From: a virus
Direction: 5' to 3' (one strand)
IMG/VR virus record: IMGVR_UViG_3300028802_000243
Location: 1 to 27,689 of that record
Length of the DNA stretch: 27,689 nucleotides
Shown here: positions 4,499 through 24,378 of the stretch, piece after piece
How the letters are laid out: every line of letters begins with the position of its first letter
Numbering within the stretch: the first letter of the stretch is position 1
The notes under the pieces: generated by a model
The model's input: the letters and a program-made list of their open reading frames with translations, nothing else
What the model was told of the DNA's origin: nothing
Databases searched by the model: none
Program-made: the position numbers and the translations under genes

Positions 4499-4996
4499 TC
4501 ACCCCTCTAGCCATGCTGGCGGCGCCCGCAGCGCCATGTTGATGTCTCGCTTGGTCTGCCGGGTCGCGGCGCGCGGGGCGACCTCCACCCGGATGGCGAC
4601 CGACCCGCTGGGCGCCCAGCGCTTCACGCAATCGCCCATCGCGATGTTGCAGTCATCGTTGCCCAGGGCGCCCGCCCTCTGAAGGCAGTCGCAACATAAT
4701 TTCAAAAGATTATCGCGGTCGGGCTTGTGGGTGTGCAGCGTGCCCAGGCGTTCCGGCTTATTGGTTGGGAAGCGCCACAGGATCGACACGCGCAGCGCCT
4801 GACCGGCGAACGCCGCCAGGACGGCATCGGCGCCCACGTTCGTCACCACCGCCCTGGCGGCGCGTTCCAGGGCCGCTGCATAGACTTTGGCTTTGCCGGT
4901 CATCGACACAGGCCGACGCCGCCCGACATGGCGACCCCTGGGCAGGGCGTGAGGGGTGCCCTTCAAAGTGACTATCAAGACCAGCGGTTCTTGCAT
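4499..4996 (-). CDS. rusA: RusA-like Holliday-junction resolvase (165 aa)
   Basis: RusA enzymes cut Holliday junctions in pairs of symmetric nicks and occur in many lambdoid and other temperate phages. The diagnostic part is here: HKPDRDNLLKLCCDCL, with Asp93 and Asp95, followed by GALGNDDCNIAMGDCVKRW with Asp114/Asp115 and Lys125. These carry the expected metal-binding acids. The N-terminus (LVLIVTLKGTPHALPRGR) matches the start of the fold. The ATG at 4996 is used because the extra upstream residues from 5041 look like leader. It lies just downstream of the iteron-like repeat region and next to the primase-helicase gene, consistent with a role in resolving replication or recombination intermediates. 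Confidence 0.85.
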   Translation of the reverse strand: MQEPLVLIVTLKGTPHALPRGRHVGRRRPVSMTGKAKVYAAALERAARAVVTNVGADAVLAAFAGQALRVSILWRFPTNKPERLGTLHTHKPDRDNLLKLCCDCLQRAGALGNDDCNIAMGDCVKRWAPSGSVAIRVEVAPRAATRQTKRDINMALRAPPAWLEG

Positions 4997-5224
4997 GGCT
5001 AAAGTTCCGTCAAAAAAGTTCCATGAAAACCGGCGCCGCAAAAAACACCCTACTGTCGCGCTGACGCCCCGAAGGGGGTAGCGTCGTGCGATGTGGGGTT
5101 ATAATTAAGGGGTCTGCGACGCTAAAAAAAATCATCGTTAAACCTTTGGCACGATTGAATAATGACGGGCGCGACGCTAACGATTTTTGGCATTTTTCTT
5201 GCGACGCTAACATTGCGACGCTAA
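4997..5224. other. Non-coding region, candidate replication origin
   Basis: This 228-base gap between the resolvase and primase-helicase genes holds no credible gene. A 67-residue open frame here is poor and crosses the repeats. It contains four GCGACGCTAA direct repeats (annotated separately), A/T-rich stretches (GCTAAAAAAAATCATCG and GATTTTTGGCATTTTTC) and TATAATTAAGG at 5100-5110. An iteron cluster plus AT-rich DNA next to the replication protein is typical of an origin, but this is inference. Confidence 0.5.
5116..5224 (+). repeat. Four iteron-like GCGACGCTAA direct repeats
   Basis: Identical copies are at 5116-5125, 5171-5180, 5201-5210 and 5215-5224. The last two extend to a perfect 13-mer, TTGCGACGCTAAC, at 5199-5211 and 5213-5225, spaced 14 bp start to start. 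Neighbouring copies are 55, 30 and 14 bp apart. A degenerate copy, GCGACGCTAC, lies inside the primase-helicase gene at 5313-5322, and GACGCTAC occurs inverted at 5079-5086. Iterons normally bind a replication initiator, or they could be operator sites. Confidence 0.7.
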
Positions 5225-7897
5225 CTAACCCTTTGCTTCATTTGAACAATCACCTGAAAACTGTAGGCCAGTCGCACGGGTCGCATCGGTTGCAAGGCTT
5301 TCCGAATGTTGCGCGACGCTACCACCACTTTCTTCCATCGTCGCAGCGGTCGCAAGCGGCGCATCGGTTGCAGGTTCGGCCTGTTTAGGGGGTGCTGCGG
5401 TGGTGCGGTCCTTCTCCTGGCCCTTGGGCACGATGCGCCCTTCGACCGCGTGGAAGGTATAGTCATGCTCCCAATTCGGCGGCTTGAAGTCGGCACCTTC
5501 CCCAATCCGATAGGCGCCGCCATCCACCCCCAGGGCCTTCGCCAGCGGCCCGCTGGGGACATCCAGATAGTTGTAACTTTTGGACCCTTTGGGGTTGCAC
5601 TGGCTGATGCGATCCTGCTCCACCAGCGTCTTCGCCAGATTTTGCACGTCGCGTTCCACCATGTCGTGGAAAATGGCCGGTAGCTGGTGTTTGCGGCCAT
5701 TGGGCGGCTTCTTCATCGCGGACTTGATAGTGAAGGGGTGGCCCTGTTCGGCGGCGTAGGCGACCGCGAAAACGAACCAAGCGCTAATCTCGCCGCTGAC
5801 CGCCGCGCGCATCGACTGTTCTTGGTCGGTGATGTCGCGCAACAGGCCGGACGGCTCCCGCAACAAGGCGCGGATGCCATAGGCCATTTCCGGGTTGTTG
5901 GCCTTCACCACGGCAAAATTGTACAGCAGCCCAGGGCGCCCCTCCCGGCCTATCGCGGCCAGCCGCCCCTTGAAGTCCGGCGCATGCCAGATGCCCAGCA
6001 CCACCCGAAAGGCGCCGATGATGGCGGTGCTGCCCCGGATAGCGGTCTTCATGTCTTCGGCGGTGAAAATCTTGGAATTGCCGCTGGGCTTGCGGATGTG
6101 ATGCGTGACAATAAGCGTGGCGCCGAACTTGCCGCAGACATAGGCGCTGGCGGCTTGCACATATTCGTTGATGACGGTCGCGCTGTTTTCCTCGCCGTGC
6201 ATCGTGCTGTTCAAAGTGTCGATCACCACCAGCCGCAAATCGGTGATGCCTTCCAACTGCTTCAGCCAGCCGCCCCACTGGCTGCCGATCTTCGCCGGTC
6301 CCTGGGCGCGGTCGCGTTCAACAAGTGGGAAGGCGCCGCCCATGTTGGTTGTCGGCAGGATGATCAGCTTGCCCAGCGCCGCGCGCTTCGCCGGGTCCGG
6401 CACGATGTCGGCCAGCCGGATGAAAAGTTCTTCCCTGTCGTCTTCGGTGGTGAACATGACGACCGTGCCGCCAGCGTCCTGGGCCAGCGGCAAGCCGCAC
6501 CAGCTTTGCAGCCGTTCGGGGGTGTGGCTCGCAATCTTCACGCCCAGGTCCAGCAGCAAGAAAGTCTTCCCGGCGCCGCCTTCGGCCACCAGCAAATGCG
6601 ACTTCGCCGCCTGGATCATCCCTTCAACCAAGAACTTCCTTTTTGGCTTGTCACCCTTCGTCCAGTCGCCCACGCGCCATTGATCCAGGCGCTGTTGCTC
6701 CGAAAAAACACCGTCTAGGCCGCGCGCCACGTCTATCTGGGGTGCTTGATTGGGGTTCAGCGCGGCCACAGACCCCGTGGCGGGGGGTGCAAAAGGCAAA
6801 ATTACCCCCGGCATGGGGCCATAGGACCGAATATCCTTGTTCAGCAGCGCCCGCCATTCGGTGTCTATCTTGGCCTGTGCCCACAGCGGCTTCATGTGCA
6901 ATTCCGCCCACGCCATTGTCAGTTCGGCGGCTTTGTCCAGGCTGATAATGCGCGTGCGGGCCTGATGGATATGCAGCCCCGCGACGCGGTTGAACTCGGT
7001 CCAGCGGTTGCGGTCGGCATCGCCGCCTTCCACGATGTCGCTGTTCATAGCCACCGCGATGTCGGGCTTGTCGCCCGCCAAATCACCCTTGGCTTCCTTG
7101 AAGGCGACGAAGTTCAGACCATTGCCGGTCGCATATAGAGAAGGCGCCACGGTGCCGCACAGCTTGGCGGCATCCACCTTGATGCCGTCCATTGCTGGCA
7201 TTTCTTCGATGGCGGTCAGAAGGTCTTCCAGTTCATATTCCACATCCGCCTTGGCAGCGACGCAGCAAGGCTTCTGCACACCGTTTTTGCCGTACACGCT
7301 TCCCGGCATGCGGATGATCTGGGTGCAGCGGCCAAACGCTGCGTCGGCGCCAATCTTCAGCGCCAGCATCTTACGGGCGGCGGCGATGGTGGCGATGCGA
7401 TCACTCGGTTCTGTCAGCCGCCAATAGGCGTGCAGCTTAGGGTGGCCGGTTTCGGTGACGCCGCCGCTGTGGACGACCATCGTAGGGCGCCCCAGATATT
7501 TGGTGGCATGCGCCAGCTTGGCCGTGGTGTCGCCGCTGTCGATGTCCACCAGCAAGGTGGTGAACAATGAGATGCGTTCTTCCGTGGCCTTCTTATCCGA
7601 TAGCGCGGCGGGCGACACAGCGGCGGGCACGACAAAGACCGCGCGGCCATACTTGGCCCAGCGCTGCATGTGCCCCAGGATCATATCGACCTCAAAGGGC
7701 GAGCGCAGCGGCGTCACCGCTTCGGCTTCGTTGAAGACGCCTTCGCCTGGGGTGCCCTTTTCCCCAAGCCCGCGCAGCACGATGGAGTAGGCGAAGTTTT
7801 CCTGCCCTGGGTCGCAATAGCCGAACATCATATCGAGATAGGCCACTAGGTCAGCGCGGTTTGGCTCTACGCCCGGTGCTTGTTGTGCGAATGTCAT
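5225..7897 (-). CDS. Fused primase-polymerase and RecA-like helicase (890 aa)
   Basis: The N-terminal third looks like a RepB/PrimPol-type primase: a LLVDIDSGD motif with Asp118 and Asp120, then HSGGVTETGHPKLHAYWRL with His156, and RMPGSVYGKN at about 196-205. After a linker, residues 420-620 form a RepA-like RecA-fold helicase: Walker A EGGAGKT (439-445), a Walker B with Asp560 (LVVIDTLN) and a VTHHIRKPSG motif at 597-606. A likely winged-helix region (700-800) and a low-complexity Ala/Thr-rich tail follow. Together it could prime and unwind DNA at the phage origin. It starts at ATG 7897, overlapping the upstream TGA (ATGA), with GAGGA ahead. Its stop abuts the last iteron-like repeat. The combination in one chain is known in phage and plasmid replication proteins. 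Confidence 0.85.
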   Translation of the reverse strand: MTFAQQAPGVEPNRADLVAYLDMMFGYCDPGQENFAYSIVLRGLGEKGTPGEGVFNEAEAVTPLRSPFEVDMILGHMQRWAKYGRAVFVVPAAVSPAALSDKKATEERISLFTTLLVDIDSGDTTAKLAHATKYLGRPTMVVHSGGVTETGHPKLHAYWRLTEPSDRIATIAAARKMLALKIGADAAFGRCTQIIRMPGSVYGKNGVQKPCCVAAKADVEYELEDLLTAIEEMPAMDGIKVDAAKLCGTVAPSLYATGNGLNFVAFKEAKGDLAGDKPDIAVAMNSDIVEGGDADRNRWTEFNRVAGLHIHQARTRIISLDKAAELTMAWAELHMKPLWAQAKIDTEWRALLNKDIRSYGPMPGVILPFAPPATGSVAALNPNQAPQIDVARGLDGVFSEQQRLDQWRVGDWTKGDKPKRKFLVEGMIQAAKSHLLVAEGGAGKTFLLLDLGVKIASHTPERLQSWCGLPLAQDAGGTVVMFTTEDDREELFIRLADIVPDPAKRAALGKLIILPTTNMGGAFPLVERDRAQGPAKIGSQWGGWLKQLEGITDLRLVVIDTLNSTMHGEENSATVINEYVQAASAYVCGKFGATLIVTHHIRKPSGNSKIFTAEDMKTAIRGSTAIIGAFRVVLGIWHAPDFKGRLAAIGREGRPGLLYNFAVVKANNPEMAYGIRALLREPSGLLRDITDQEQSMRAAVSGEISAWFVFAVAYAAEQGHPFTIKSAMKKPPNGRKHQLPAIFHDMVERDVQNLAKTLVEQDRISQCNPKGSKSYNYLDVPSGPLAKALGVDGGAYRIGEGADFKPPNWEHDYTFHAVEGRIVPKGQEKDRTTAAPPKQAEPATDAPLATAATMEESGGSVAQHSESLATDATRATGLQFSGDCSNEAKG

Positions 7898-8208
7898 AAG
7901 CCGTGTTTTTCCTCATATGTCTGACCATCGGCAAAGCCGTACAAAATTTCATGCACCCGCGCGCCGCCACTCCCATCAATTCCAAAATGCTGCGCTATTT
8001 TGGAAAGGTGCATAACAGGATGCCGGTAGCGATACGCGCGCACCGCGTCGCATGTATGGCGGGTAATGGGGGCTTGGTCCGCTGGCGCTACTGTGCGGCT
8101 GCACTTTCGCCGCCGTAAATCCTCCGCATACTGCGCGAGTATCGGCATATCCTTTTCAATCGCCAGCCTGTGCAAATCGGCGCGAACTTCTGGAATTGGT
8201 CTAGACAT
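7894..8208 (-). CDS. Small predicted HTH protein (104 aa)
   Basis: The C-terminal half (DAVRAYRYRHPVMHLSKIAQHFGI followed by GARVHEILYG) resembles a helix-turn-helix with a turn at QHFGID, as in small phage DNA-binding proteins that precede replication genes. The N-terminus is helical and charged (ADLHRLAIEKDMPILAQYAEDLRRRK). The ATG at 8208 has AGG about 7 nt upstream. The TGA overlaps the ATG of the primase-helicase, so the two are co-translated and may act together at the origin, which is inference. Confidence 0.65.
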   Translation of the reverse strand: MSRPIPEVRADLHRLAIEKDMPILAQYAEDLRRRKCSRTVAPADQAPITRHTCDAVRAYRYRHPVMHLSKIAQHFGIDGSGGARVHEILYGFADGQTYEEKHGL

Positions 8209-16970: not shown

Positions 16971-18116
16971 ATGTCAAGACCAATAGGGCCAAGCCGCATC
17001 GAAGCGGACAAGAAGACGGGGATTTTCTACTACTACTGGACTGAAAATGGCCGCAGCAAGCGCGCCACCACCAAGACCAAAATCCACAAGGAAGCGCTTG
17101 AGTTTCAGCTAGGCCGGGAAAAAGGCCAAGCTGAAATCGCCAGCAACGCGGGCCGCTGGACCGTGCAGATGGCGATTGACTATTACGACGAACGCCACCT
17201 TTCGATTGGGGACGTGTTCTCGCCCGAACAAATCAGGGTCAATCTCAAGAAGCTGGCTGCCTACCTGAAGGCCACCACCTACATCGACACCCTGACGCCG
17301 ACCCACTTCACCGACTATCGGCTGATGCGGCAGAAGCAGCCGGGTTCGGTGAAGGGCAGCAAGGTCAAGGACAGCAGCATTTGGCGCGAGTTGGGGGCGC
17401 TCAAAGCCTGTTTCAATTTCTGCGCCAGGGAAGAAGCCTATTTGGGCAAACTCCCCTTCATCAAGATCGGCAAGCAGGGGCGGGCCAAGGATCGCTGGCT
17501 GAAGGACGAAGAAGCCCACCGGCTGCTGATGGCGATGCAGGGCACCCAGACCGCCCGACTGTCGTCCTGCTACCGGCTGGCGGCTATCGCCTGGGGGACC
17601 GGCAAGCGCAAGCGGATCATCGAAACCCTGCAATGGGATCAGGTCAATTTCGAGACTGGCCGGATCGACTTTCGCGAACCCTGCAAACAGGAAAGTTCCA
17701 AGAAAAAGGGCCTCACGGCGCTGTCGCCTTGGATGCTGGAACGGCTGAAGGAGTTCTACGACCAGAGGTTGAACAACTATGTGCTGGACAGCCCCGGCAA
17801 GCGTGACACCCAATTCCGGCGCATCGCCCGCGAGTGCGGCTTTAAGGGTGTCACGCCACACACCCTGCGGCACACCTGGGGGACGCGCGCCGCGCAGAAG
17901 GGCCTCAAGCTGTTTGAAATCGCAGAGGCTATGGGCATCAGCCAGAAGACCGCTGAACGCAACTACATCCACCACTGCGAAACCTTCCAGGCCGAAGCCG
18001 TCCTGAAGGGCGCCCCGCCGACCGGCATGGGCAAGGTGGTGCTGCCCGAACGCAAGGCCGAACGGCGCCGGATCATGGCGCGCAGATCGACTTTGGGGGA
18101 CGGTTTGGGGGCCTAG
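16971..18116 (+). CDS. int: Tyrosine recombinase, phage integrase (381 aa)
   Basis: The C-terminal domain carries the expected catalytic residues: Arg213 in WGTGKRKRIIETLQW, His297 and Arg300 in TPHTLRHTW, and Tyr332 in AERNYIHH. The N-terminal 60 residues form an arm-binding-like domain with an aromatic, basic start (GIFYYYWTENGRSKRATTK), and 62-165 a core-binding domain (KKLAAYLKATTYIDTL). The C-terminal 45 residues are basic, maybe DNA-contacting. The ATG at 16971 is 11 nt after the HTH gene. It integrates and excises the phage genome. The repeat-rich region just downstream (18119-18406) would be a natural attachment site. Confidence 0.93.
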   Translation: MSRPIGPSRIEADKKTGIFYYYWTENGRSKRATTKTKIHKEALEFQLGREKGQAEIASNAGRWTVQMAIDYYDERHLSIGDVFSPEQIRVNLKKLAAYLKATTYIDTLTPTHFTDYRLMRQKQPGSVKGSKVKDSSIWRELGALKACFNFCAREEAYLGKLPFIKIGKQGRAKDRWLKDEEAHRLLMAMQGTQTARLSSCYRLAAIAWGTGKRKRIIETLQWDQVNFETGRIDFREPCKQESSKKKGLTALSPWMLERLKEFYDQRLNNYVLDSPGKRDTQFRRIARECGFKGVTPHTLRHTWGTRAAQKGLKLFEIAEAMGISQKTAERNYIHHCETFQAEAVLKGAPPTGMGKVVLPERKAERRRIMARRSTLGDGLGA

Positions 18117-18558: not shown

Positions 18559-21500
18559 TCAGGGCGGCACGGGTTCGGGCGCCCGACGATCCGGCGCCCT
18601 GGGTCCGGCGAAGTGGCGGGTGAAATATTCGCGGGTCTGGGGGTGGGCGATTAGGGCCAGCAGCCCGGTGCCCAGGCCCTGCAACACTTTGACCCTTGGG
18701 TTGAGCGTCATGCCCAGCCCGGTTTCAAGCATAGGTTGTACAATCATCTTGTAACTATCTTGCGCCAGCTTGCGTTCGGCGTGGTTGGTGTTGGGGGAAT
18801 TGCGGTCGCCAAAATAGGCGTTCAGGTCGTCGTAGGTTTCGGCGGCGGTGCCCAGGGTCGGCCCCAGGATTTGGGTCCAGGGCGTGGATTTATACTTGGT
18901 GCTTGTCGCGGCCTGGACCTTGCTATCCATCGTCCCCAGGCCCCCGGTGCGCGACACCACTTCCAGCCCCTTTTTAAGAAGCCCAGGCGGGTTGCGGCGC
19001 TCCCGCTCCTCGGTCTGCTCCCGCTGGGTGTCGCTGCTGAGATAGGCTTTCTTGGCCTCCACAATCGCCCAGCCGACCGCCGTCATGGGCGCCATCATCA
19101 TAAGCGGCATCATGGCATAGGCCCGTTCCTGCCAGTTCAAGCCCGACTTGGGGTTCAGGGCGGCTTCGCTCATGGCCCCCACCCGGTTCAGCACTTGCTT
19201 CTGGTGGGCATAGGCGAAGGACGCAATGCCGAAGATGGCCCCGCCGACCGGGTGGCTGGCCCACCCCGGCTTCAGGCTGCGATTGGGCCGCACCACAGTC
19301 TCGCCCACGAACTTTCCCAACGCCCGCTGGTAGTGCATGCCAAATTCGCCCTGGGTGTCCAGATCGGCTTTGGTGGGCTTGTCCAGGCTAACCAGCCATT
19401 CCGCGAAGTGCTGCACGCTGTCCTTCGGGGCGTTGGCGCCACGGCGCCCTGGGGGCTGGTTGTGGCCTGTGGTCAAGGTTTCCTTGCCGACGCCCAATTC
19501 CGCCAGCAGCCGCCGCGACAGATTGGAATAGGGCGTGTCATCGACAATATCTTTCGCCAGCCGCCGCATGAAGACCATGCCAGCCTTCACCGCCACGATG
19601 CGGTTCTTCTCGGTCAACTGCGTCAGCAGATTGAATTTGAACAACCGGCTGGTGATCTTGCGCGCGAAGCCGTTTTCATTGCCGCCTTCATCGCCTGTGC
19701 GTGCCATCAGGCCGACTTCATCATAGGCATCTCCCACCAGCCCCATGTCGGTTGCGAAATCGCGCACATACTTTGCGCCCGCCGTTTGACGCAGCAACGG
19801 GATGGTCTGGTGGATCATGTCGATATAAGCCTTCGGCCCGTCAAACAGATTGCCGGTCCTCACGCTGATAGCCATAGGCTCCGTCAAATTGATGATGGTG
19901 GACAGCGGCAAGAAGGCCAGCGCCTGGACGGTGCGCGCGATACTGAGCGGCAGCCGCATTTTGCCGGTCGCACCTTTGGGCGCACCGAAGGCGCCCGTCA
20001 TCTGCCGGATAATATGCGTCACCTGTGGGATCAACGGGCCGTTGCCTTCATCACGCAGCCGCTGCTTGTAGTCTTCCCATTTGCCTTCAGGGTGATCATA
20101 CCACGCCTTGGCATCCTGGCCCTTGGGGACCGGCGTTGTCTTGTCCCGCTTACCCAAGCGGCGCGACCATTCCGCCAGCCGCACCGCGCGGTTGAGATAG
20201 GCAGGAAGAACATCAGCCGGACTGCGCAAGAAGAAGTCGCCCATGATGGCGTCGGCATCCGGCCCCAGGCTGCGGCTGTGGTTGAAGGGGTCCGCATCGC
20301 CCAATCCCTTGGTCAATGCCGAACCTTCGCCCATGCCCCAATCTTCGGTCTGTAGCCGCTCAAGCCAATCTTGCGCAGCGACAACAGCTTCGTTGTGGCT
20401 CAACCCGCGCGAACCGTCTTGCTTGCGCGCCATGTACGCCTTGGTCGCCGCCGCCAGAAAACCTTTTTCGTCGTGCAGCGCCCGGTGGCGGTCCACAATG
20501 CGCGGCCAATAATTCTTGATTTGGCCGACATCGACACCGGCAGCCTTCAGGTAATCATAGACTTCCTTCAGGATGGTTTGCAGTTCAATAGCGGCGTCGC
20601 CTAGTTCTGTGCCGCGCACGATGTTCCTGGGGTTCTGCACCAGGGCGCCGATTTGGCGCAAATTCTCGCGCATCTTCTTGCGCCGCATGGTGCTGAACTT
20701 GTCCAACGCCTTGCCGACGCGCGCCGTCCATTGATCGGTCTTTTCCTCAAAGGCCGCGTGATAGCCCTGATCCTTGGCGCCATCGGCGCCGCCGCGCGAC
20801 AGCGGGTTAAACAAATCTGCCAGATCATGCAGCGTCTGCCGACTTTTGGCGTACATGCCAATGCCGCCAAGCTGCCGCAGCCGACCGTCAAGGGAATACT
20901 GATAGATGCCCCAGATGGTCCGCATCTTGCGGGTGGCGTCCCAGCCCTTCTGGAAAAAGGTTTCACCCGGCGCCCGCCGTGAACCGAAACGCTCAAAGCT
21001 GTCGGCCAGATCATCAACAAAATTTGCCGCTGAATTTTTCAGCCAGTTGTAGAGCCGCTTCAGGTCACCGCCCAGCATCTTCCAGATTTTCGGGTCCATG
21101 ATCGGATTGGAGTACATGGTGTTTCGGATGTCGGCCATGCTATCGACTTTTTCTTCGACACCGGGTTCGTCCTTGCCAGCTTCCTTGGCGGCTTTGACAT
21201 CATCGGCGGCTTCGGCTTTTTCTGCGGCCTTCGCGCGCTCATCGGCCTTGGGTGCTTCGTGAGGCTGGCGCGTATCGCCAGGAGTGGTTTTCCCGCTGCC
21301 AGCCTCACGCGCACCTTCCGCCGCTTTGGTCGGCGGGGGTTCTGTCTTGGTTTCCGTCTTCTTTGGGTCCGGCTTCGTCGCCTCCGGTTTAGGGCTTTCA
21401 GGCGCCGCCCGCCCACGCTCTCGCACGGTCAGGCCCTGGCCGGATGGGTGGTTCTCGACCTCAAAGAATTGATCCGGCGAGCCAGTGGGGTTGCGTTCGT

Positions 21501-24378
21501 TTTTCTGGCCCTTCCTGATGATCCACAGCGCGGCTTGCTTGTTGTCCATGAATTTGATGGGACCGCCTTTGTCCGACAGGACATACTTACGGCTGTCGAT
21601 GTCAAAGCGTCCGTCCTTGTCCTGGGCCTTGGGCGTGTTGGTGGCGTTTTCATCGCCCACCTTGTAGTCGCGCCCGCGCGAGTGCTGCTTGGCTTGCTGG
21701 CCGGACTGCTGGCGCTGACCGCCACCTGACTGTTGGCGCTGCTGATCGCGCTGGCGCTGTTCACGTTCGCGCCGACGCTGTTCTTCCTGCGCCCGCCGCC
21801 TTGCCTCAATCTCCGCATCTTCGCGCGCATAACGGGCTTCTCTTTCCGCCTTATCCTTGGCATGTTTTGCCGCCCGTTCTTTAGCCTCCCTATCGAAGCG
21901 GTCAAAATCTTCGCGCATTTTGCGCATGATTTCATCCATCTCGGCGCTGTGCTTTTTCCTGTCTTCGTCGCTTCTGCGCTGGTGTTCTTCGTCACGCGCC
22001 TTGCGTTCCGCGCGTTCAGCGTCCCTCTTTTCCTTTGCGGCTTTTTCAGCTTTGACGGCTTCTGCCGCTTGGCGCGCACGTTCGGCTGCGGCCTCCCGGT
22101 GGACCCGTTCCGCTTCGGCAGCGTCCCTGGCCTTCCTGGCGTCGGCGTCTTCCTTGGCCTTGGCTTGCTTGGCGCGTTCTTCCGCAATCTTGCGCCGGAC
22201 CTCTGTCGCAGCGGCTTCGTCACGCTTGGCTTTCTCATCGGCGGCTTTGGTGTCAGCCTCCCGTTTGGCGCGGGCTTCCTGTGCCGCGCGAGTGTCGCGC
22301 GCTGCCTGGGCCTTGGCTTGCTCTTGTGCGGAACGCGCCGCCCTTTCGTTGACACGGCGCTGTTCCGCCGTCTTCGCTTCGTCGTCCTTCACCTTCTTTT
22401 CGTGGGCTGCCTGTTCGGCTTCGCGGCGGGCGCGTTCGTCCTGGCGGCTGCCGGTGCGCCTTTGTTCGCCGGGGGTTTCGACATCAGGGCTATCATCTTC
22501 GCCCATGTCGTCGTGGCGTTCCTGGCGGCGGGTGCGCTGGCGTTCCTCAAAGTCCCGCATGATTTGTTCGGCGGTACTCATGCGCGGGCCTGGGTGTTCA
22601 CCGGGCGGCTGTTCGGGGAAGGGCGACCGGCCTTCACCCTGGCCGGGGAAATCCACATTGTCGTCAGCGGCGGTGTCGGCGCGATAGGTCTGCTTTGGCT
22701 TGCGCGTCACGCCTTCATCCGGCATACGCGGATTTTCCGGCTCGCCGGGGATTGTCTCGCCCTTTTCATTGACATGAACCGGCCCTTTGCGGCGGCGCTC
22801 CAAGTCCGCTTCCATGCGGGTGTTGTCGCTGTAGCTGCGCTTCTTCAGGTCGTTGGCGTCCACCGGATAGGGCTTGGCGCCTTCCAGCGGTTTGCCGGTC
22901 CTGGGGTCGATGCGCTGCACCGTCACAATCTCGCGCAAAGTGCCGTCCACATCGTTCACGCGGCGCTTGATTTCCTGCACCGGATGTTCGCCGTGCATTG
23001 TGACTTCAACCGGCTCCGGTCCCTGCGGCATGCCAGCCGGTTGGGTGTCAGCGCTGTTAGGCGTGACGCGCGCCCGCTGGGCATCGGCTTGGTTAAACAC
23101 ATGCTGGGCTTCGCGCTGGCCCGCCAGATCATCGCGGGTACGCGGCGCCATGTCGTCGCCGCCAAAAAAGCGGTCCTTCATCGGGTCGGCTGCTTCGCCA
23201 CCAAAGCCAGGATCATAGTCAGGCGGTGCGTCGTCTGCCTTCTCATAATTCGGCTTTGGCCTGTCGGTGCCCGCTGCCCGCGCCCGCTCCCGATGGCGGA
23301 TGTCTTGTTCGCTGGGCGTGATGGGATGTTCCGGCAGCGGCACAGCACCCGGTTCGCCTTCCGGCGCCGCACCCTTGCCGCGCGACAGGGTGTTGAACAT
23401 ATCGGTCATCTGTTCCGGCGTGACGTTGTTGGGGTCGGTGATGCCGTGTTCCGCCATGAACGCCTTGAAGGCGTCAATTTCTTCAGGCTCCGGTGGCGCC
23501 TTGTTGCCGCCACGGAAACTGCCAAACATATTCAGCACGCCGCGCAGCCCTTCCACGCCGCCATGAAGCGTGCCGCCCATCGCAAAGCCCAGCAGCGGCG
23601 CCAGGGCAAGTTCTTCTGCGGAGAACTTTTCCTGCATCCCGCTACCGACTTTCAGGGCCTGTTCGGCAGGATTGAACGCAGTGCCCACTACGGCTTGATT
23701 TCCGCCCGCCGCCAAAGTCCCACGCACTGGCGCGGACGTTGCGACGCGCTGGACAACCTTGGGCACAACCCGTTCCGCGATTTGCGGCACCGCAGACTGG
23801 ACAATCTTAGGAAGTATCTTGTTGCCAACCCACCCCAGCGCACGCCCCGCCCCGTGGATTTTATCAACCATCACAGATGGGTTGGTCAGCACATTGGTAA
23901 AATCGCCGCCGACTTGACCCAGCAACGCAGCCGGACCTTCGCCGGATGCGACGCCAGCCCAAAAGCCGTTGCGGTTCCAAGCTGGCACGGCTTCATCTTG
24001 TGCAGCCACTTGCGCGTCGTAGGCCGCGCGGTTGGCTTCATAGCGTGCGGCGGCTTCAGGCTGACCCTGTGCCCGCAGTGTGCGCAGCATGGTGTTTTCT
24101 TGATTGCGCAACACCGCTTGATTGGTGCCGCCGAAGGCGGCTTGGCGAAAGTTCAGCGCCGTGCGGCCCAGCAGCGACGGCACCGGCTCCGGGCGGGCAG
24201 TGACTTCCTCGGTCGGCAACGCCATGCCTTCGGGCGCGGCGACAGGATTGAAGCCAGGGGGCGGCGGCGGATCGGCGTCGTCGTCATCCATTACCGGCTG
24301 CGGGGCCTTGATCGGCGCGAACCCAGGCGGGGGCGGCGGGTCTTCGTCGTCGTCCATATTGTAGGCGGGCATAACCAT
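18559..24378 (-). CDS. Giant virion protein, putative ejection protein (1939 aa)
   Basis: The last gene of the leftward late run. N-terminus: an acidic Pro-rich unit, DDDEDPPPPPGFAPI, is followed by a near copy, DDDDADPPPPPGFNPV (about 9-47). Residues 60-300 are a folded-looking, helix-rich segment. About 600-895 is a highly charged, Ala/Glu/Lys/Arg-rich helical region resembling TolA or internal-virion coiled coils, and about 990-1075 is a second low-complexity stretch. The C-terminal 850 residues (from about 1080) look globular, with hydrophobic helices (LPLSIARTVQALAFLPLSTI, and MMPLMMMAPMTAVGW near 1756). The size and position suit an internal or ejected virion protein. No transglycosylase or polymerase motif is evident. 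GGGAGG lies 6 nt before ATG 24378. Confidence 0.78.
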   Translation of the reverse strand: MVMPAYNMDDDEDPPPPPGFAPIKAPQPVMDDDDADPPPPPGFNPVAAPEGMALPTEEVTARPEPVPSLLGRTALNFRQAAFGGTNQAVLRNQENTMLRTLRAQGQPEAAARYEANRAAYDAQVAAQDEAVPAWNRNGFWAGVASGEGPAALLGQVGGDFTNVLTNPSVMVDKIHGAGRALGWVGNKILPKIVQSAVPQIAERVVPKVVQRVATSAPVRGTLAAGGNQAVVGTAFNPAEQALKVGSGMQEKFSAEELALAPLLGFAMGGTLHGGVEGLRGVLNMFGSFRGGNKAPPEPEEIDAFKAFMAEHGITDPNNVTPEQMTDMFNTLSRGKGAAPEGEPGAVPLPEHPITPSEQDIRHRERARAAGTDRPKPNYEKADDAPPDYDPGFGGEAADPMKDRFFGGDDMAPRTRDDLAGQREAQHVFNQADAQRARVTPNSADTQPAGMPQGPEPVEVTMHGEHPVQEIKRRVNDVDGTLREIVTVQRIDPRTGKPLEGAKPYPVDANDLKKRSYSDNTRMEADLERRRKGPVHVNEKGETIPGEPENPRMPDEGVTRKPKQTYRADTAADDNVDFPGQGEGRSPFPEQPPGEHPGPRMSTAEQIMRDFEERQRTRRQERHDDMGEDDSPDVETPGEQRRTGSRQDERARREAEQAAHEKKVKDDEAKTAEQRRVNERAARSAQEQAKAQAARDTRAAQEARAKREADTKAADEKAKRDEAAATEVRRKIAEERAKQAKAKEDADARKARDAAEAERVHREAAAERARQAAEAVKAEKAAKEKRDAERAERKARDEEHQRRSDEDRKKHSAEMDEIMRKMREDFDRFDREAKERAAKHAKDKAEREARYAREDAEIEARRRAQEEQRRREREQRQRDQQRQQSGGGQRQQSGQQAKQHSRGRDYKVGDENATNTPKAQDKDGRFDIDSRKYVLSDKGGPIKFMDNKQAALWIIRKGQKNERNPTGSPDQFFEVENHPSGQGLTVRERGRAAPESPKPEATKPDPKKTETKTEPPPTKAAEGAREAGSGKTTPGDTRQPHEAPKADERAKAAEKAEAADDVKAAKEAGKDEPGVEEKVDSMADIRNTMYSNPIMDPKIWKMLGGDLKRLYNWLKNSAANFVDDLADSFERFGSRRAPGETFFQKGWDATRKMRTIWGIYQYSLDGRLRQLGGIGMYAKSRQTLHDLADLFNPLSRGGADGAKDQGYHAAFEEKTDQWTARVGKALDKFSTMRRKKMRENLRQIGALVQNPRNIVRGTELGDAAIELQTILKEVYDYLKAAGVDVGQIKNYWPRIVDRHRALHDEKGFLAAATKAYMARKQDGSRGLSHNEAVVAAQDWLERLQTEDWGMGEGSALTKGLGDADPFNHSRSLGPDADAIMGDFFLRSPADVLPAYLNRAVRLAEWSRRLGKRDKTTPVPKGQDAKAWYDHPEGKWEDYKQRLRDEGNGPLIPQVTHIIRQMTGAFGAPKGATGKMRLPLSIARTVQALAFLPLSTIINLTEPMAISVRTGNLFDGPKAYIDMIHQTIPLLRQTAGAKYVRDFATDMGLVGDAYDEVGLMARTGDEGGNENGFARKITSRLFKFNLLTQLTEKNRIVAVKAGMVFMRRLAKDIVDDTPYSNLSRRLLAELGVGKETLTTGHNQPPGRRGANAPKDSVQHFAEWLVSLDKPTKADLDTQGEFGMHYQRALGKFVGETVVRPNRSLKPGWASHPVGGAIFGIASFAYAHQKQVLNRVGAMSEAALNPKSGLNWQERAYAMMPLMMMAPMTAVGWAIVEAKKAYLSSDTQREQTEERERRNPPGLLKKGLEVVSRTGGLGTMDSKVQAATSTKYKSTPWTQILGPTLGTAAETYDDLNAYFGDRNSPNTNHAERKLAQDSYKMIVQPMLETGLGMTLNPRVKVLQGLGTGLLALIAHPQTREYFTRHFAGPRAPDRRAPEPVPP

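Follow-up and report, generated by a model that had tools for sequence, protein, structure and literature searches.

What purpose is served by the cluster of short repeats that lies between a primase-helicase gene and a rusA-like gene in this viral genome, and which protein reads it? To our knowledge, phage origins have seldom been mapped, and those of uncultured phages almost never. We analyzed the whole 27,689-base linear IMG/VR contig IMGVR_UViG_3300028802_000243, hereafter the window, whose positions supply all coordinates. We consider it very probable that the array at 5079–5322 is the replication origin of the phage and that its repeats are iterons, to which the adjacent primase-helicase binds through a winged helix in its C-terminal part. 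The reading is based on the array itself, clusters of other sequences at the same place in relatives, specific covariation in a related clade, and predicted folds.

The 10-mer GCGACGCTAA occurs exactly four times on the plus strand of the window, with start-to-start spacings of 55, 30, and 14. Everything listed by the initial annotation was found, namely the four exact repeats, two of them in a tandem 13-mer, and a degenerate copy at 5313. It had overlooked a further core copy, in inverted orientation at the distal edge of the array, which we scored as a site in the layout analysis; the same core, CGACGCTA, is also present at 5314, inside the degenerate copy region. It had likewise missed how the repeats meet the primase-helicase gene: the copy at 5313 falls inside its 3′ end, and the second 13-mer abuts its stop codon. 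The array begins in the final ~100 bp of the gene and occupies most of the gap to rusA. None of 400 Markov-simulated windows contained any 10-mer at even three copies per 120 bp, confirming that the array is real and not a product of chance. The strongest repeat cluster in the whole record was the 9-mer GCGACGCTA. The A/T-richness remarked on earlier also held (Table 1), and the best 100-mer of the array (at 5101) reached 60% A+T, within the top 0.24% of the window. The window contained no DnaA boxes (TTATNCACA) and gave no Rfam match.

Table 1 Coordinates of the repeat array, the hairpin beyond it, and the flanking genes and domains
Feature	Position	Strand	Remarks
rusA-like Holliday junction resolvase gene	4499–4996	-	Across the array from the primase-helicase; neighbor kept in L092 and L093
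Short hairpin, CCCC-TTC-GGGG	5067–5077	-	Beyond the array; weak, 4-bp stem
Inverted core copy, CGACGCTA	5079–5086	-	Far array end
A/T-rich array segment	5087–5224	.	Candidate unwinding region; A+T 56% vs 41% in the window
Iteron copy 1	5116–5125	+	Exact GCGACGCTAA
Iteron copy 2	5171–5180	+	Exact GCGACGCTAA
Iteron copy 3	5201–5210	+	Exact GCGACGCTAA inside 13-mer TTGCGACGCTAAC (5199–5211)
Iteron copy 4	5215–5224	+	Exact GCGACGCTAA inside identical 13-mer TTGCGACGCTAAC (5213–5225)
Degenerate copy, GCGACGCTAC	5313–5322	+	One mismatch; within the primase-helicase gene, at its 3′ end
Primase-helicase gene, 890 aa	5225–7897	-	Proposed initiator; N-terminal RepB-primase-like part, RSF1010-RepA-like helicase, C-terminal winged helix
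Predicted winged helix, residues ~690–785	5543–5830	-	Proposed iteron reader; AlphaFold model; in relatives, the equivalent domain covaries with the repeats
RecA-fold helicase domain, residues ~402–690	5828–6694	-	Best solved match RSF1010 RepA

The 890-aa protein fuses primase-like and helicase domains in one polypeptide. A Pfam search returned an AAA_25 match and a weak RepB_primase match that fell under Pfam's cut-off, with no TOPRIM match. The sole match of a profile built from 52 relatives to solved structures was RSF1010 RepA (E 1.8e-10), and Foldseek with the modelled helicase domain likewise ranked RepA first (1nlf, E 2.6e-12). In the AlphaFold model, a primase-like domain (residues ~14–247) and the helicase (~402–690) are followed by a helix-helix-helix-strand-strand unit at 690–780, and the tail is disordered. 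Neighboring genes encode RusA, a Cas4-type exonuclease, a second helicase, and a Sak4-like protein.

GCGACGCTAA used as a query in viral and genome collections retrieved no relatives, nor did single-protein peptide patterns; relatives were obtained with helicase and primase alignments. Three records, L092, L093, and L094, carry primase-helicases 57–58% identical to that of the window, and L094 is identical to L093 over the compared stretch, leaving two distinct close relatives in the searched collections. The initial annotation had held that absence of the repeats from close relatives would count against its reading. This holds at the level of sequence only: GCGACGCTAA is absent from both, but in the stretch from the primase-helicase stop codon to rusA, L092 has a cluster of GGTGCAATTG and L093 one of CTGGGTCAA. 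The position of the cluster is thus conserved and its sequence is not. Identity is 42–56% in their winged-helix regions, compared with 58–67% in the primase or helicase domains. By best-9-mer count, the window and L092 arrays equal, and do not exceed, their best control window. Among more distant window-type homologs (36–39% identity, 61 loci), repeats were not enriched at the gene end, and just three of the 61 loci had any 9-mer cluster of at least four copies; these proteins can be aligned across the winged-helix region despite having no array there. Homologs from Azospirillum, Wolbachia, and Agarilytica had no exact 9-mer cluster of at least three copies near the stop codon. As a separate observation, the distant window-type loci L095–L171 have a strongly conserved winged-helix region with the motif KNAKSGLYRRR and no array at the gene end.

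Helicase and primase alignment scans also retrieved ~110 relatives of a Shinella type, ~26% identical to the window protein, from which 90 distinct loci were analyzed. L009, an element carried on a Shinella plasmid, has the same gene order as the window and another cluster, AGTTGGGAA, in the same place. We counted copies of the best 9-mer, with one mismatch allowed, in the 350 bp from 50 bp before to 300 bp after the stop codon. The mean across the 90 loci was 7.14 copies; 2348 control windows drawn from these loci averaged 3.24, and dinucleotide shuffles 2.65. In 68 of the 90, the array count exceeded every one of the locus's own control windows. Rhizobium phage RHph_Y3_1 has an array of nine sites around TGGGAACG and a TOPRIM-like primase part. 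The N-terminal primase part varies among members, being TOPRIM-like in L006 and L010, which are more distant, and RepB_primase-like in the window, with the RepA-like helicase kept; L006 nevertheless has an array.

At least 14 repeat groups occur within the Shinella-type clade, and the arrangement of sites is frequently retained even where all copies have changed. In L224 (CCGGATTTTGA), for example, sites lie 27, 41, 54, 64, 135, and 216 after the stop codon; each of these six positions is also a site in L208 (CAGAACACGGA), with matching relative orientations, and L208 has three additional sites. Among pairs with differing repeats, 7.6% had 60% or more of their site positions and orientations in common, compared with 0.7% for random positions. 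The spacing in the window had been called unusual for plasmid iterons; its values were confirmed, and uneven spacing with mixed orientation proved normal for the arrays of its relatives.

We then compared repeat-consensus distance with protein distance along the primase-helicase in 83 Shinella-type loci (L009 numbering), with relatedness partly controlled by permutation. Repeat distance followed the C-terminal part, the last ~150 residues (rho 0.51; largest of 2000 permutations 0.13), and hardly the rest of the protein (rho 0.09). In segments along the protein, the raw correlation was 0.00–0.12 before residue ~800 and 0.24–0.59 from there to the end. Sak4, the other helicase, and Cas4 gave 0.02–0.03. 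The 25 best single columns were confined to the C-terminal domain, and several of them map to the wing or to where helix 3 begins. The support for origin recognition by this domain comes from covariation across 83 relatives of a clade ~26% identical to the window protein rather than from the window's own subgroup, which is small, with two distinct close relatives. It is with the C-terminal winged helix of this large clade that the repeats covary, and not with the N-terminal primase, which the initial annotation had put forward as a possible binder.

Such a correlation could also arise if repeats and C-terminal codons, which are adjacent, traveled together as one recombination block, neither reading the other. 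The C-terminal part has clearly been swapped among phages. Pairs with N-parts 96–97% identical and C-parts only 50–64% identical have different repeats, as in the natural swap L052/L190 (96% and 61%), and pairs with N-parts 71% and C-parts 95–99% identical share them, as in L033/L232 (71% and 99%). Within this C-terminal stretch of codons, synonymous change correlated weakly with repeat distance (raw 0.03–0.16), making linkage alone a poor explanation; the partial correlation with repeat type was 0.01–0.15 for synonymous and 0.25–0.55 for amino-acid change. The signal also persisted in residues 800–900 alone and after thinning to 25 divergent representatives (0.31, compared with −0.02 for the N-part), and linkage offers no account of all copies changing together on a kept layout. 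We therefore regard co-travel without recognition as very unlikely.

The covariation and the kept layout also bear on a broader possibility, that the iterons and the gene segment for the winged helix form an exchangeable lock-and-key cassette whose two parts move and diverge together. We hold this idea tentatively and think it somewhat doubtful. If it is true, cassette turnover may be selected, for instance because it keeps relatives or satellites that infect the same cell from exploiting one another's initiators.

The last 145 residues of the L052 protein were predicted with confidence to form a winged helix followed by strands (mean pLDDT 89.6), and the AlphaFold model of the window protein shows these elements in matching order at 690–780. 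From this shared order, in parallel with the related clade, we infer that the window's own winged helix reads GCGACGCTAA. Structural matches of the C-terminal domain in VIA-align were generic winged helices (Z about 7), and no family assignment was made from them.

A 104-aa HTH-like protein, encoded at 7894–8208 in a gene adjoining that of the primase-helicase, had been named as the other possible binder. This protein, or another small one, might bind the iterons and recruit the primase-helicase, much as RSF1010 has a separate iteron binder, RepC (PMC4234260). No homolog of the 104-aa protein was detectable in any locus examined, including the array-bearing L092 and L093, and in the related clade it is the primase-helicase itself that covaries with the repeats, so we give a separate binder very little credence.

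Beyond the array, a C-rich/G-rich hairpin was present in 70 of the 90 Shinella-type loci, compared with 67 of 1069 control windows. Its loop is most frequently TAC, and its stems vary between phages while pairing is kept. In L009, L014, L035, L060, L196, and other Shinella-type loci, the hairpin stands ~140–300 bp past the primase-helicase stop codon. No T run follows it in the Shinella-type loci read, which makes a plain terminator unlikely. In RSF1010, stem-loops beside the iterons are primase start sites (PMC4234260), and by this analogy the hairpin is a plausible candidate for such a site.

The array lies between two co-directional genes, and winged helices are common among regulators. It could accordingly be an operator, bound by the winged helix of the primase-helicase or by another phage DNA-binding protein and controlling transcription into rusA and later genes, with replication starting elsewhere. 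GC skew, proposed earlier as a check, does not help to locate the start: it showed no sign change at 5.1 kb along the window and is uninformative on a short temperate-phage contig, temperate life being suggested by an integrase (16971–18116) and a Cro-like regulator in the window. A scan of 4900–5400 found no sigma-70-like promoter, and its one terminator-like site was not above shuffle expectation. The lack of a promoter, the A/T-richness of the array, the fusion of the covarying domain to helicase and primase domains, and a hairpin past the array without a T run in the related clade all argue against an operator, and we judge both the operator and its control of rusA and later genes unlikely.

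Short repeat arrays are also found at partition and packaging sites, and the array might serve such a function, or recombination, in cis. In all loci read, however, it lies beside the primase-helicase and not beside partition or terminase genes, and it varies with the initiator domain; another cis function is thus very improbable. Overall, the initial annotation's interpretation was partly supported: comparison with relatives strongly favors its view that the repeats beside the primase-helicase gene are the iterons of a phage origin, and neither of the binders it had proposed is supported.

If the array is the origin, the 890-aa primase-helicase would be its own initiator, encoded beside its target. 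Its C-terminal winged helix would bind the 10-bp iterons, the array would nucleate helicase rings, the A/T-rich DNA between the sites would open, and the attached primase would begin synthesis, perhaps helped by the hairpin beyond the array. Each of these steps, from iteron binding and unwinding to priming and initiation at this site, is inferred.

As proposed, the module resembles the SaPI, P4, and RSF1010 systems yet lacks one defining feature of each. P4 alpha differs from this phage in helicase class and in origin layout. It likewise joins primase, helicase, and winged helix in one protein, the winged helix here being predicted, and its winged helix binds repeats (PMC4234260); its primase is of the TOPRIM type, whereas here there is a weak RepB_primase match and no TOPRIM. 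SaPI Rep and SCCmec Cch2 are self-loading replication helicases with a primase fused or nearby, in which respect they resemble the proposed module, and each binds, through a C-terminal domain, iterons that directly follow its own gene (PMC7581432). Several short repeats immediately downstream of the initiator gene are seen here too. Their ATPases are of the DUF927 or D5/Primase_Cterm type, in contrast to the AAA_25, RecA-fold helicase here that is closest to RSF1010 RepA, and SaPI is a staphylococcal island rather than a tailed phage. RSF1010 (IncQ) oriV has in common with this phage a RepA-type RecA-fold helicase, a RepB-primase-like domain, and iterons; the related clade adds a hairpin near the array, which in the window has a stem of only 4 bp. 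RSF1010 divides the labor among three separate proteins, RepA, RepB′, and RepC (PMC4234260), whereas here one polypeptide has a predicted winged helix in place of a separate RepC, and the repeats are ~10 bp, irregular, and in both orientations.

By domain order, the protein can further be likened to PrimQH-type primases, which combine a RepA/DnaB-like helicase with a C-terminal winged helix (PMC5862659). That survey of mobile-element primases suggested, from domain order, that the winged helices ending such fusions recognize origins; here, arrays and covariation in one lineage support the proposal for fused phage primases. A literature search, with subscription journals mostly outside its coverage, found no paper describing this array family. 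The arrays offer a rule for predicting an origin and its reader domain from sequence alone in a widespread replication module. They also offer a natural set of matched winged helices and repeats, in which the recognition code, and the reason for its turnover, are directly testable.

Two further genes of the window stood out. A 1939-aa virion protein (phrog_30152; 18559–24378) has a long, charged, low-complexity middle. A 250-aa ORF at 1219–1971, with no PHROG match, contains NQYCGPSAISAITG and has features suggestive of a papain-like cysteine protease fold.
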